Part shown: piece by piece, positions 16,185-21,262 of the stretch
How positions within the stretch are numbered: position 1 is the stretch's first letter
Layout of the letters: each line of letters begins with the position of its first letter
From: a virus
Strand: one strand, 5' to 3'
DNA length: 43,386 bases
Virus record (IMG/VR): IMGVR_UViG_3300010391_000188
Span: 1 to 43,386 of that record
The notes under the pieces: model-generated
Seen by the model: the letters and a program-made list of their open reading frames with translations, nothing else
The model's database searches: none
What the model was told of the DNA's origin: nothing
Translations under genes and position numbers: made by a program

Positions 16185-16616
16185 ATGAAATATATAATAC
16201 CGCAATGGGCGTATGAAATGAGTAAAGAGATAATACCCACCGAGGACCAGGAGCAAAAAGTAGTCGCGCAATGGCTTGACCTGCATAAGATTAAATACGC
16301 GGCTATACCCAATGGCGGTTTAAGAAACAAGATAGTGGCCGCTAAACTGGTAGGGCAAGGGGTGAAAAGAGGAGTGCCGGACCTCTTAATCTTTGACCCA
16401 CCGCCGGCCTCACCTAAACGGACAGGGCTAGCAATCGAAATGAAGCGCACTAAGGGCGGTACGGTATCAGACGACCAAAAGGAATGGCTTGTAGCCCTAG
16501 AAGAGAGGAATTGGATTACTCAGGTCTGCAAAGGAGCTACAGAGGCCATAAGGCTGTTAGAGACGCTAGGGTACGGGAAGCAAAGTTGCAGGACCTTGAC
16601 TGGAGGTGCATCATGA
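16185..16616 (+). CDS. VRR-NUC family nuclease
   Basis: The 143-residue product shows EDQEQKVVAQWL, AAIPNGGLRNK, GVKRGVPDLLIF (Asp66), then LAIEMKRTKGG with Glu85 and Lys87, and a conserved DDQKEWL. This is the PD-(D/E)xK-type VRR-NUC fold, standalone in many phages, acting on structured DNA such as junctions or hairpins. The start at 16185 has GGGGAA close upstream; ATG 16218 is possible but lacks a site. Its stop overlaps the next gene. Confidence 0.85.
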   Translation: MKYIIPQWAYEMSKEIIPTEDQEQKVVAQWLDLHKIKYAAIPNGGLRNKIVAAKLVGQGVKRGVPDLLIFDPPPASPKRTGLAIEMKRTKGGTVSDDQKEWLVALEERNWITQVCKGATEAIRLLETLGYGKQSCRTLTGGAS

Positions 16617-16909
16617 AGTGCGAAAAATGCGGCGGACTGGCGGCACGGCACAGCGAATTTTACGGCGAGTTTGTCAGGTGCCTCAACTGCGGCTGGCAAT
16701 CAAAGATAGTCTTTTTTGTGGAAATCCGGGTAGAGGAACGTCGCGGCATGTATGAAAAGGATGAACTCGGGAAGCCGCTTTACCAATGCCCGGTCTGCAA
16801 GCGGTTCAGGATGCGTCTTAAGACCGCGCAAAAATGCAAAGCCTGCCAGACCGCAGCCATGAGAGGGATACCTATTGCCGAACGCAAATCAAGGCAAATA
16901 ATGGCTTGA
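16613..16909 (+). CDS. Double zinc-ribbon protein, possible late regulator
   Basis: The 98-residue product has CEKCGG and CLNCGW in the N-terminal half and CPVCKRFRMRLKTAQKCKAC in the C-terminal half, two zinc-ribbon-like units, with a basic end. It is the last gene before the late control region, the place where many phages keep a late activator or antiterminator. The regulatory role is inferred from position alone. The promoter at 16906-16934 overlaps its stop codon. Confidence 0.55.
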   Translation: MKCEKCGGLAARHSEFYGEFVRCLNCGWQSKIVFFVEIRVEERRGMYEKDELGKPLYQCPVCKRFRMRLKTAQKCKACQTAAMRGIPIAERKSRQIMA

Positions 16910-16934
16910 CATCCTGATGCGTTTGTAGTAAATA
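16906..16934 (+). promoter_or_regulatory. Sigma70-type promoter before the structured region
   Basis: TTGACA (16906-16911), exactly 17 bp, then TAAATA (16929-16934). The predicted start is near 16941. No coding gene begins for more than 450 bases, so its first product is untranslated RNA. Confidence 0.75.
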
Positions 16935-16940
16935 AATAGT

Positions 16941-17210
16941 ATATTTGTTTTATCAGCCTGTTTAGCGCAAAAAATAAGACGATGAGTCTTAGGTCCAAAA
17001 AGACCCACTAACCAGGACAACCAAATATACCGAGTATCATGCTTAGGTCGGCCCCGTGTGGCCCCTGGTTAGGCATGGTAGATTTACAGGGCGGTTATAG
17101 CCAGGCTATCACGGTAAAGGGCTTGCCATAGCAATATGGCGAGGGTATGATGAAATCTGCTGAGGGAGCGGCCTAAGAGCCATAAATCTTAGGATAGTCC
17201 CTCCGAAAGC
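16941..17210 (+). ncRNA. Highly structured non-coding RNA or late leader
   Basis: This non-coding stretch can form seven or more helices: TAAGAC/GTCTTA (16975-16980, 16986-16991); CTAACCAGG/CCTGGTTAG (17008-17016, 17064-17072); GTAGATTT/AAATCTGC (17078-17085, 17153-17160), enclosing ATAG/CTAT and CTTGCCAT/ATGGCGAG (17122-17129, 17136-17143); and GAGGG/CCCTC (17162-17166, 17199-17203), enclosing CCTAAG/CTTAGG (17172-17177, 17188-17193). CTTAGG occurs two more times (16988 and 17042), so alternative pairings exist. It follows a strong promoter. It matches no RNA class I know. It may be a trans-acting RNA, a packaging RNA or an antitermination leader. Confidence 0.6.
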
Positions 17211-17246
17211 TAAAATGTATTACTTTTTTTTTGTTTCTTTAAATTC

Positions 17247-17261
17247 TGGCACAGTTCTTGA
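17247..17261 (+). promoter_or_regulatory. Sigma54-like (-24/-12) promoter element
   Basis: TGGCACAGTTCTTGA matches the -24/-12 consensus TGGCACN5TTGC at every fixed position except the last (A for C), with correct spacing between the GG and the -12 element. A T-rich tract (17223-17240) lies upstream. It is placed before the TerS-like gene. Confidence 0.5.
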
Positions 17262-17264
17262 GTA

Positions 17265-17290
17265 TTAAGGCCTTCAGGGTTTAAGGCCTT
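17265..17290. repeat. Two direct repeats of TTAAGGCCTT
   Basis: Identical 10-mers lie at 17265-17274 and 17281-17290, 16 bp apart, each containing the palindrome AAGGCCTT. They fall at and just after the start expected from the sigma54-like element. They could be operator sites or part of a packaging site. Confidence 0.5.
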
Positions 17291-17399
17291 CTTAGGGTGC
17301 ATAGTGATGTTGGCTCAAGCTAAAGGTGGGCACATTCAACCCGGAACAGGTTAAAGAGACCTAACGGACCTATTTAACAACAGGACGATTCAATAAAAC

Positions 17400-17819
17400 A
17401 TGGCACAAGGTAAAGCAGCCCAAATAGATTGGGAACTCGTTGATAAACAACTCAAAGGAAACAAAACTCAGCGCGCCATTGCTAAATCATTAAACATCTC
17501 AGCACCAACCTTTTCCCTGCTTCTAAAGAAACGAAACCAAGAATTAAATGCCGTACCTATGATTCAAAATAGGGAAGCATTAGATAACTATAAGAAAAAT
17601 AGAGCAGATATTTATGCAGAGACGGGAAGGAGACTGTTAGAAGGCGTTACTGAAGATAAAATAAAAAAGGCCAGGGTAGGCGAGCTTGTCCTTGCACATG
17701 CCCAAATATCCGACAAAGAACGCCTTGAAAGAGGCCAGTCAACAGCCAATATCAACAACCTAGTGGCAATCCTTGATAGGATAGATGCCAAAGGTATACC
17801 CCCAGAGAGCAGATTTTAG
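17400..17819 (+). CDS. Terminase small subunit-like HTH protein
   Basis: The 139-residue product has an N-terminal helix-turn-helix (KGNKTQRAIAKSLNISAPTF), a helical middle and ends with ELVLAHAQISDKERLERGQS then TANINNLVAIL, a pattern found in phage terminase small subunits and related packaging regulators. It lies 1.8 kb before the large subunit, farther than usual, with an origin-like region and small genes between. The ribosome site is weak. It would recognise the packaging site; a transcription regulator is the alternative. Confidence 0.5.
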   Translation: MAQGKAAQIDWELVDKQLKGNKTQRAIAKSLNISAPTFSLLLKKRNQELNAVPMIQNREALDNYKKNRADIYAETGRRLLEGVTEDKIKKARVGELVLAHAQISDKERLERGQSTANINNLVAILDRIDAKGIPPESRF

Positions 17820-18023
17820 TGGATAACTCTAAATTATCCACAGCCTACAGCCCTTATTTTTATCCACAGCCTTAGACCCTAGCCAAATTCCTTAATAGAA
17901 TCAACATCATGCCTATAATATTTATTATGTAAACTCTTAGGTTATGTTGTTGTAATCATTGGACAATAAGTGTGCCACTCCTTATTAGGAATACAGGTTA
18001 TCCACAAACCTAGGTTATCCACA
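17818..18023. other. Cluster of five DnaA boxes, origin-like region
   Basis: TTATCCACA, the consensus DnaA-binding 9-mer, occurs perfectly at 17834-17842, 17860-17868, 17998-18006 and 18015-18023, all on the plus strand. A fifth, 8/9 box lies on the minus strand at 17818-17826. The last two flank the palindrome AACCTAGGTT (18007-18016). The stretch between (17880-17960) is AT-rich. This density is typical of DnaA-dependent origins or of DnaA-controlled promoters. Confidence 0.8.
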
Positions 18024-18249: not shown

Positions 18250-18278
18250 TTGACAATTAGAATCGCTTTTGTTATCAA
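18250..18278 (+). promoter_or_regulatory. Sigma70-type promoter for 18335-18934
   Basis: TTGACA (18250-18255), 17 bp, TATCAA (18273-18278). It precedes three small coupled genes whose transcript would meet the terminator at 18990-19025. Confidence 0.6.
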
Positions 18279-18334: not shown

Positions 18335-18532
18335 TTGGGGAATAAGAACTTCGTGGATAATGAGAAGGGTCGTACTGCGGTATTAGTGCCAGCGGGGACG
18401 ACCCTTTTTGATTGTAATGCAACTTTATCTGTCATAGTAGATTCCATAATTGCCAATAAATTTAAGAGTATTCTTGCAACTGGCGGTCCTGATGACGAGC
18501 CGAACAGGCCGTGGGACGAGGTGTCGGTATGA
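18335..18532 (+). CDS. Hypothetical protein, 65 residues
   Basis: TTG start with GAGAGG seven bases upstream. The product has a central hydrophobic helix-like stretch (ATLSVIVDSIIANKFKSIL) and an acidic end. It is first in a three-gene unit behind the promoter at 18250. Not recognised. Confidence 0.5.
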   Translation: MGNKNFVDNEKGRTAVLVPAGTTLFDCNATLSVIVDSIIANKFKSILATGGPDDEPNRPWDEVSV

Positions 18533-18952: not shown

Positions 18953-19025
18953 TACTCGGTAAAACGAGTACGGTGACACGAATAACGTGAGCCGCATTAT
19001 CCTTCGGGATTTTGCGGCTTTTTTT
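18953..19025 (+). terminator. Attenuator-like region: two hairpins and an intrinsic terminator
   Basis: Hairpin 1 is TACTCG/CGAGTA (18953-18958, 18965-18970). Hairpin 2 is CACG/CGTG (18977-18980, 18986-18989), extendable by CGG/CCG (18971-18973, 18992-18994). The terminator is AGCCGCA/TGCGGCT (18990-18996, 19013-19019) with an inner ATCC/GGAT, a TTCG loop and a T run. The extended hairpin 2 uses bases of the terminator's 5' arm, so the two forms exclude each other. It stands directly before the late genes. Confidence 0.75.
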
Positions 19026-19042
19026 ATTTTCGGAGGTTTCAC

Positions 19043-19181: not shown

Positions 19182-19622
19182 ATGAAAACAATATTAGCCT
19201 TTTTAGCAATAACCGTTCTCCTGACGGCGGATCTTGCGTTTGGCGGTTCCGGCAACTTCGGCGCCCAGATGGAAGCAAAGACCACCATATTCACAAATCA
19301 GAGTTCCAACGTGACTCCGGCCAACGCAACCCCGATAGATGCCCGGGGTTGGCCGAACCGCACAATATCTTTTGTTGGGCCTGGTGGACGCACCGGATTT
19401 GCCAATGCTTCGACCGCCTGCACTATATGGGGTTCGACCGACTATAACGGCGTAACTGGGAACTGGACCTTTGTCGTTACCAAGACACTCAACACCTCAA
19501 GCACCTACGCGGACATCCCAAGCGCATGGCAGTGGATAAAAGTCAGCAATGCGATAACGGGCGGCGTTCCGAATGCGCGAACAAGCGTCAATGCGACTCT
19601 TTACCAAAACACTTACAGGTAA
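19182..19622 (+). CDS. Secreted-type protein with signal peptide, near terminase
   Basis: The 146-residue product begins with a classic signal peptide (KTILAFLAITVLLTADLAFG) followed by a beta-rich domain of Thr, Ser, Asn and Gly with two aromatic strands (WGSTDYNGVTGNWTFVVTKT; SAWQWIKVSNAITGG). It looks like a small beta-sandwich. It sits two bases before the terminase gene, an odd location for an exported protein. It could be a virion decoration or an exported factor; unknown. Confidence 0.6.
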   Translation: MKTILAFLAITVLLTADLAFGGSGNFGAQMEAKTTIFTNQSSNVTPANATPIDARGWPNRTISFVGPGGRTGFANASTACTIWGSTDYNGVTGNWTFVVTKTLNTSSTYADIPSAWQWIKVSNAITGGVPNARTSVNATLYQNTYR

Positions 19623-19624
19623 TA

Positions 19625-21262
19625 ATGGCCCGTCACAAAGACATAGTCCCGGTTCAGGACCCGCAGGAGCGCGTAGCATCCCTGTTCGAATCCTGGAAGT
19701 GGAACCCCCGCAAATTTGTGGAGGAGGCTATTCTTGCGCCTTTCAACCAGGCTAACGGCACGAACTACCGTCTGAGCAACCAGCAGGCGGAAGCTTACGA
19801 AGAACTCCGCAAACTTGTTACTGCGAAAGTGCAGCTTGAGACGGCGATAGGAAAACTTATTACCGAGAAGTTCCCGACTAGCGGCCCGAACCCAACTCCG
19901 GAACAGATGCAACAGTTGACCGACGAGGGCATGTCTACTCTTTCCGAAAAGGAACAGGAGTATGCCCGGAAGATAGGCATTTCCATACAGGCCGGGAAGG
20001 GTACAGGCAAGGACGCTTTCGCGGCCGGCGCGATTATCTGGTTTCAACTTTTCTTCAAGGGCGCTTTTATACCCTGCATAGCCCCATCCGCGCACCAACT
20101 TGAAGATATTATTTGGGGCGAGATAAAAAAATGGCTGTCCACCAGTCTTGTTTCACACCTGATTGTTTGGCAGGCGCAAAAGATATTCACGAAAGAGGGC
20201 GAGGGAAAGGACTGGAAGGTTATACCTCGCACGGCGAACCCGAAGGCGGACCTTACTACCCAGGCGGCGACGCTCTCTGGACTTCATGCCCGGTACATGA
20301 TGGTTCTATTCGACGAGGCAGACGCCATCCCGGAACCGGTCTATACCGCGCTCGATTCCACACTCACGAATATAGTCAATTTTGTACTTCTGATATACAA
20401 CCCGACCCGCAATACCGGGTACGCCATAGAGACTCAGAAGTCAAACCGCTGGATAAAACTGCATCAGAACGCCGAAGAAAGCGAACTTGTATCCCGCGAA
20501 TCCATACAGGTCAAGAAAGATAGGTGCAACGGCGATACGAACGCGAACTATTACCGCGTATACGTCAAAGGTCTGCCGCCGATTGCCGAGGATGGCGCCC
20601 TTATCCCGTGGGACTGGATTCAGGATGCGATAGAGCGCGAGATCAAAGTAGCGGACGAAGAACAGCGCACAGCGGGCCTCGATGTGGGCGGCGGCGGCGA
20701 CCCAAGCGTTATCTGCTATGGGCGTGGTGACTTGGTAGAAGGTTTCTTCAAGAACAGTTCCCCAAGTTCCATAGAAGTGGGACTTTGGGGTGCGCAGAAA
20801 ATGGACGACATGGATATTGTCGCAAGCGCCGTTGACATAATCGGACTTGGAAACGGGACATATAACGAAATGCGTCTTCTTGGAAAGCGCGTTTATCCTT
20901 TCGATGCCAGAGGCACGGCCCGGAACAAGGACCGCTTTTTTAATCGTCGCGCCGAAGTATGCTGGACGGCCCGCGAGAAGTTCCAGAACGGGACGATCAG
21001 TATCCCCAATAATCCTGAATTTATAGCCGAACTCAGCGTTTTAAAGTACGACGAAGAATCCGGCAAGGTAAAGATAGGCGGCAAGAAACAGATACGTCGT
21101 GACCTTGGCGGAAGTTCAAGCGATTACTTTGATGCCTTCATGCAAAGACTGTCTCTAAACAACGGTGCGTTTAGGAAACCTAAAGAGGACAGATACGAAA
21201 AGGCGTACAACAGGCAGCATGAACGCCGTGACGATTCGGCCTATGCCTGGATGGGAGTTTAA
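19625..21262 (+). CDS. terL: Terminase large subunit
   Basis: The 545-residue packaging motor has Walker A GKGTGKD (residues 124-130), Walker B MMVLFDEAD (225-233), coupling region NPTRNTG (about 259-265) and the RNase-H-like nuclease start GLDVGGGGDPS (Asp353). Further acidic nuclease residues are expected downstream and are plausible at DARGT and SSSDYFDA. ATG 19625 follows the previous stop by two bases and begins at the first conserved region; a longer frame from 19526 overlaps the secreted gene. It ends overlapping the portal start. Confidence 0.92.
   Translation: MARHKDIVPVQDPQERVASLFESWKWNPRKFVEEAILAPFNQANGTNYRLSNQQAEAYEELRKLVTAKVQLETAIGKLITEKFPTSGPNPTPEQMQQLTDEGMSTLSEKEQEYARKIGISIQAGKGTGKDAFAAGAIIWFQLFFKGAFIPCIAPSAHQLEDIIWGEIKKWLSTSLVSHLIVWQAQKIFTKEGEGKDWKVIPRTANPKADLTTQAATLSGLHARYMMVLFDEADAIPEPVYTALDSTLTNIVNFVLLIYNPTRNTGYAIETQKSNRWIKLHQNAEESELVSRESIQVKKDRCNGDTNANYYRVYVKGLPPIAEDGALIPWDWIQDAIEREIKVADEEQRTAGLDVGGGGDPSVICYGRGDLVEGFFKNSSPSSIEVGLWGAQKMDDMDIVASAVDIIGLGNGTYNEMRLLGKRVYPFDARGTARNKDRFFNRRAEVCWTAREKFQNGTISIPNNPEFIAELSVLKYDEESGKVKIGGKKQIRRDLGGSSSDYFDAFMQRLSLNNGAFRKPKEDRYEKAYNRQHERRDDSAYAWMGV

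Follow-up and report, generated by a model that had tools for sequence, protein, structure and literature searches.

A predicted five-branched RNA domain upstream of the small-terminase-like gene of a temperate phage: a possible cis-acting leader of the late transcript

The noncoding region preceding the small-terminase-like gene (terS) of the virus record IMGVR_UViG_3300010391_000188 (43,386 bases, analysed over its entire length and hereafter referred to as the window) harbors a stretch of 254 bases, from 16961 to 17214 on the plus strand, that is predicted to fold into a single closed RNA domain. The interpretation that we favor, to which we assign a probability of about 0.4, is that the terS/late transcript begins with a cis-acting structured leader of which this domain is part, with elongation as its most likely target. 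The single components of this interpretation have a different strength: the stretch is probably a real transcribed structured RNA, its action in cis as a leader is an evenly balanced matter, and antitermination proper appears rather doubtful. Transcription, start site, cis action, and antitermination are what we infer for this RNA.

Genomic context of the structured stretch

The source virus is a temperate phage: its genes include one for an integrase, on the minus strand at 268-1494, and others for a phage coat protein, a P22-like portal, and the large terminase subunit, TerL (19526-21262, plus strand; PHROG 2, E 1.3e-29). The best TerL matches in the collections were only 36-40% identical, with no close relative there, and single-sequence scans with terS, TerL, and the portal retrieved either no close relative of the phage or one at 36%. 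The gene located before TerL (17400-17819, plus strand) encodes a helix-turn-helix (HTH) protein of 139 residues, which did not match any Pfam or PHROG family; it aligns with the proteins occupying the same place in L015, L027, L037, and L042, where the genes are terS-like, and in about 50 more phages. The name terS is thus given from position and kinship, not from function. The Shine-Dalgarno sequence of this gene is weak.

Directly 5' of the structured stretch, a gene (16613-16909, plus strand) codes for a protein of 98 residues with two CxxC...CxxC zinc-ribbon-like motifs. Its best Pfam/PHROG match was no better than E 0.019, and the family searches did not retrieve any Q-family match; we consider it a candidate late regulator. 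This gene and terS are separated by 490 noncoding bases, with 185 noncoding bases between the end of the structured domain (17214) and the terS start codon. The noncoding nature of the region, proposed in a preliminary description of this DNA, was confirmed: the plus strand from 16910 to 17399 is devoid of any open reading frame of at least 60 residues.

The same description placed a promoter, TTGACA-17-TAAATA, in front of this region. The perfect -35 element (TTGACA, 16906-16911), the 17-base spacer, and TAAATA (16929-16934) are all there, on the plus strand; however, the putative -10 element is weak, since it shares only three of the six bases of TATAAT and lacks the final T, which is the reason why a consensus promoter scan did not list the possible promoter at 16906-16934. 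As for the other end, the T-rich tract reported at 17223-17231 corresponds to nine consecutive T residues one base further on (17224-17232, plus strand), but no terminator hairpin adjoins it according to folding (-1.1 kcal/mol), and the idea that the RNA ends there is, therefore, unsupported. Both the start of the RNA (likely at 16941) and its end are predicted only, and hence unproven. Between the structured RNA and terS, the sequence TTAAGGCCTTC occurs twice (17265-17291) and can form an 8-bp hairpin.

Predicted fold and its stability

Folding of positions 16960-17225 revealed a closing stem of 6 bp, TTTAGC/GCTAAA (16961-16966/17209-17214, p 0.93), which had previously been overlooked and which turns the stretch into one closed domain with five helical branches. 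Proceeding from the 5' end, these comprise the hairpin TAAGAC/GTCTTA (16975-16991, p 0.97), the hairpin GGTC/GACC (16992-17005, p 0.99), and a 9-bp stem, CTAACCAGG/CCTGGTTAG, spanning 17008-17072 (p 1.0) and enclosing the hairpins 17029-17048 and 17050-17063. The fourth branch (17077-17161) is a 9-bp stem (17077-17085/17153-17161) with two G-T pairs, surrounding a hairpin at 17097-17109 and a 9-bp hairpin capped by GCAA at 17122-17143 (p 0.92 and 0.99), whereas in the fifth (17162-17203, p 0.99 and 1.0) a GAGGGA/TCCCTC stem has an inner CCTAAGA/TCTTAGG helix. The mean pair probability exceeds 0.8 for nearly all helices and, for most of them, 0.9.

All the helices of the preliminary description were found in this fold. 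Its 9-bp long-range stem (17008-17016/17064-17072) is indeed perfect, and its nested GAGGG...CCCTC domain corresponds to GAGGGA/TCCCTC (17162-17167/17198-17203) enclosing CCTAAGA/TCTTAGG; the 8-bp stem at 17078-17085/17153-17160 exists as well, but it is not perfect, one of its eight pairs being T-G. The three copies of CTTAGG against one of CCTAAG, from which a switch between folds had been suggested, were counted correctly, but the same count appeared in 31 of 1000 shuffled sequences and is only mildly unusual. The fold switch itself was discarded: the 5' end can enter an alternative fold, but nothing links this fold to CTTAGG.

The folding energy of 16960-17214 is -89.4 kcal/mol, whereas 800 dinucleotide shuffles average -70.7 ± 4.7 kcal/mol and not one of them is as low (z -3.95); the reverse strand of the same interval, with z -1.63, falls well short of this value. 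The difference between the strands, together with the G-U pairs of the predicted structure, speaks for an RNA rather than a palindromic DNA element of the cos or pac type. The domain boundaries were set after folding and adjusted to take in the closing stem; for the whole leader from its likely start at 16941, the z value is -2.86, with 4 of 800 shuffles as low, and a rival fold, slightly better, has the 5' end paired to the bases around 17145-17160. Moreover, when the window was tiled in full, z values below about -2.8 were seen for 15 of 330 tiles, some of them inside genes. Folding energy alone is, therefore, no proof of a functional RNA; as a prediction, the fold is real and has gained definition over the earlier description.

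Search for homologs of the RNA

The preliminary description did not recognize the class of this RNA. This was borne out by the comparison with Rfam 15, which gave no match at the gathering cut-off in the window; a permissive search of the region (E 10) returned four matches, the best at 13.6 bits, to snoRNA and lncRNA models, that is, at chance level, and none of 18 relatives had an Rfam match either. The search of the window for a known intron, tmRNA, tRNA, or riboswitch gave no match, and these identities were discarded. Homologs of the window RNA were not retrieved by blastn against phages and plasmids, nor by nhmmer and blastn across all the fetched loci, and its covariance model (R1) did not match any sequence in 103 loci, in 37 virus records taken whole, or in 396 genomes; these genomes represent the phylum to which L003 belongs, the only genome contig with a relative of TerL. 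As homologs are absent from the collections searched, no covariation, for or against the structure, is measurable for the window RNA.

Leaders preceding terS in related phages

The terS alignment brought in 53 loci for a comparison of leaders. Strongly folded, promoter-proximal leaders of 200-300 nt precede terS in L134, L133, L127, and the group L092/L093/L099; those of L127, L134, L092, and L133 fold better on the sense than on the opposite strand, as expected for RNA and not for DNA dyads.

The branched leader of 257 nt shared by L092 (964-1226) and L099 (1942-2203) is 96.1% identical between the two over its 257 nt, whereas the terS genes that follow it are only 81.1% identical. The sequences immediately preceding the leader are unrelated, so that its upstream boundary is sharp, as if the leader had been swapped as a module. 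Among its 63 consensus pairs, two show compensated double changes and none is broken. A noncoding stretch that is more conserved than the adjacent gene, together with the compensated changes, represents good evidence, at the sequence level, that this leader is a functional and exchangeable RNA module.

A different leader, with two hairpins and resembling the put RNA of phage HK022, was found in L095 (2138-2224), L097 (653-740), L102 (3617-3709), L147 (1254-1351), and L149 (530-614). In the alignment of the five, 100% of the cells are paired and two pairs have double changes; the covariation score was reached by 6 of 500 shuffles and by no slid register. Both compensated pairs lie in the second hairpin, which has a GNRA cap in four of the five loci; the flanking single strands are conserved, and the element is absent from Rfam. 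The terS proteins of L092 and L095 are 76% identical and their leaders are unrelated; the leader is thus an exchangeable module that does not co-evolve with terS. The covariance models of the relatives' leaders (R2 and R3) matched only their own members, the leaders thus not being homologous to each other, and covariance models did not reveal any homology between them and the window RNA.

These good examples were picked out of 38 loci, over which the best fold before terS has a mean z of -1.80, compared to -1.34 for 45 control gaps of the same loci, a difference that is not significant. Structured terS leaders, as predicted by folding, are present in some phages of the group, not in all. The leaders of L127, L119, and L107 fold as far as the start codon, and those of the relatives reach terS with no clear strong terminator intervening. 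The leader is immediately preceded by a sigma-70 region-4-like gene in L112 (E 2e-4) and by a weakly Phage_antitermQ-like one, below threshold, in L095 (E 0.022).

A short terS leader motif in L107 (3708-3774) and L117 (3756-3830) shows paired changes (TTGCACC/GGTGCAA versus TTACCAC/GTGGTAA) and a conserved TCAGTA loop. The paired changes are suggestive, but the stability of this leader is not above that of shuffled sequences, and it was set aside as evidence.

DnaA boxes and terminators between terS and terL

The window has four exact DnaA boxes (TTATCCACA), and all of them map at 17834-18023, directly behind terS, in a DnaA-box cluster covering 17818-18023, with a further site at 18352. Counting over the window and the distinct terS-bearing relatives, from 60 bases before to 700 bases after the terS stop codon, TTATNCACA sites number 17 in 41 kb, compared to 13 in the remaining 392 kb (a 12-fold enrichment; binomial p 1.4e-10). 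DnaA boxes just after terS are found in at least eight phages (L094, L104, L115, L123, L088, L101, L128, and the window). The cluster between terS and terL looks like a candidate DnaA-dependent origin or a DnaA-box-like packaging site, which keeps in play a replication role for a transcript starting from the putative promoter at 16906. The HTH of the terS-like protein of L042 (548-982) has a weak match, below the cut-off, to DnaA domain IV (PF08299, E 3e-4), of some interest because DnaA boxes adjoin terS in relatives.

Two intrinsic terminators are predicted on the plus strand between terS and terL, at 18367-18412 (-21.9 kcal/mol, followed by TTTTT) and at 18988-19026 (-20.3 kcal/mol, followed by TTTTTTT). 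Across the group, terminators behind terS are not enriched on the sense strand (36 sense versus 38 antisense). In the window, TerL, the portal, and the coat protein lie downstream of the second terminator, and no good promoter was seen after it; hence, either a polymerase coming from upstream must pass both terminators or an unrecognized promoter exists. A second TTGACA-17-TATCAA element (18250-18278), about 90 bases before the terminator at 18367-18412, might give rise to a short RNA or an attenuated leader; it could serve the genes beyond terS, yet it sits before both terminators.

The proposed cis-acting leader would work as follows. The promoter at about 16906-16934 would start an RNA near 16941, the first 275 nt of which would fold into the closed five-branched domain, with transcription running on into terS. 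The folded leader would then, most likely, act on its own polymerase or recruit a phage factor to it, and the polymerase so modified would pass both terS-terL terminators and allow the expression of the late genes, an action functionally similar to that of the HK022 put RNA or of lambda late control. A protein-assisted version of the terminator passage is equally possible, because the sigma-region-4-like and weakly antitermination-Q-like genes of L112 and L095 precede leaders. Among the three roles put forward in the preliminary description, the control of late antitermination by a leader is also the best one, given these two regulator-like genes and the two strong terminators that lie ahead of terL. 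The broader proposal of that description, a structured RNA heading the packaging and late genes, draws support from the fold, the strand asymmetry, and the occurrence of structured leaders before terS in relatives.

Alternative explanations

The stretch might owe its fold to chance or drift, being noncoding DNA that folds well without any function at the RNA level. The low tiles elsewhere in the window, coding ones included, are in line with this, as are the lack of a homolog, the post hoc boundaries, the weak -10 element, and the fact that structure before terS is not generally enriched; nonetheless, no shuffle among 800 reached the energy of the domain, the two strands differ, the domain is closed with helix probabilities mostly above 0.9, and leaders at the same place in relatives carry compensated changes, so that we regard chance as unlikely. 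A scenario similar to that of the lambda 6S RNA, in which transcription stops near the T-tract to give a functionless RNA of 270-290 nt unless a Q-like protein encoded upstream is loaded at the promoter and allows the polymerase to continue, appears more improbable. The gene order (a regulator-like zinc gene, promoter, structured RNA, and late genes), the nine T residues at 17224-17232, and the sigma-4-like or antitermQ-like genes upstream in relatives would fit it, but the T-tract is without a terminator hairpin, the zinc protein has no Q-family match, and a by-product of this kind would need less structure than the fold shows. To a stand-alone small RNA acting in trans, regulatory or directed at the host, which was also among the roles first proposed, one might ascribe the putative promoter of its own, the closed domain, the T-tract, and the 185 noncoding bases before terS; the place before terS suggests instead an action in cis, and the relatives' leaders continue to terS with no clear strong terminator, so that such an RNA has a small probability.

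An operator of terS translation, to which TerS or a ribosomal factor would bind, would agree with the leaders of L127, L119, and L107 folding to the start codon and with the weak Shine-Dalgarno sequence of the window terS, but in the window 185 bases part the domain from the start codon, and similar terS proteins have unrelated leaders; we consider it quite improbable. The same applies, to an even greater extent, to a replication RNA, that is, a promoter-driven structured pre-primer or activating transcript directed towards a DnaA-box origin just behind terS: all four exact TTATCCACA sites lie 600-800 bases 3' of the RNA, and boxes follow terS in relatives as well, but a coding gene lies in between, L092 and L099 have the leader and no exact box there, and several box-bearing relatives are without a structured leader. 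Finally, a packaging RNA like that of phi29, another of the roles first proposed, is very unlikely. The predicted RNA is branched and adjoins the packaging genes; on the other side, the permissive Rfam search (E 10) gave no match to the pRNA model, the phage has a terS-like protein, its portal and coat belong to the P22-like kind that works with a terminase, and the RNA is not common to the relatives sharing TerL.

Implications and comparison with known systems

If the leaders of the window, of the put-like type, and of the L092 type change elongation, RNA-based antitermination would be common and exchangeable in uncultured phages; to our knowledge, very few cases of phage transcription control by RNA only have been described. 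One might speculate, with little confidence, that these leaders belong to an undescribed class of late-leader RNAs of phages, modular and fast-evolving, in which the window RNA would be one orphan type. Within such a class, it is similarly questionable whether a shared terS/TerL lineage would carry swappable, sequence-unrelated RNAs between the late promoter and terS, all performing the same job, and it is no less conjectural that this job would be polymerase modification or antitermination. Should such leaders indeed change elongation, the terS leader would be the place to seek new RNA classes. The present loci form a concrete set for tests, with covariation already visible in two leader types.

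The phi29 pRNA belongs to a class of 174 nt from protein-primed phages without terS. Like the window RNA, it is a branched phage RNA near packaging genes, but the window has a terS-like gene before TerL and no Rfam match. In lambda, the late leader (6S RNA) starts at the late promoter pR' and works with Q, with the late genes behind and the regulator gene just before. The window shares with it the late promoter (putative here), a similar leader length, the late genes behind, and a regulator gene (candidate here) just before; it differs in that its late genes begin with terS, and since neither a Q-family gene upstream nor an intrinsic terminator hairpin at the leader end was found, identity with a lambda-type late leader was rejected.

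The staphylococcal cabRNA is a structured phage RNA produced from within the coding sequences of terS and terL, with unrelated sequences in different phages (PMC10686824). The window RNA is noncoding and upstream of terS, but in both cases a structured RNA of the terS/terL region has sequences unrelated between phages. The put RNA of HK022, about 70 nt long with two stem-loops, is located at the early promoters and is a promoter-proximal structured RNA that gets polymerase past terminators (PMC9378689). It does so in cis and needs no phage protein. By anatomy, the window RNA is not a put RNA, since its 254 nt, closing stem, and five domains contrast with about 70 nt and two stem-loops; it also lies before terS, and a sequence relation was not found. 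Nevertheless, the two systems share a structured leader directly 3' of a phage promoter (putative here) and terminators further along the same strand, and the two-hairpin leaders of L095, L097, L102, L147, and L149 are similar to put in both size and plan.
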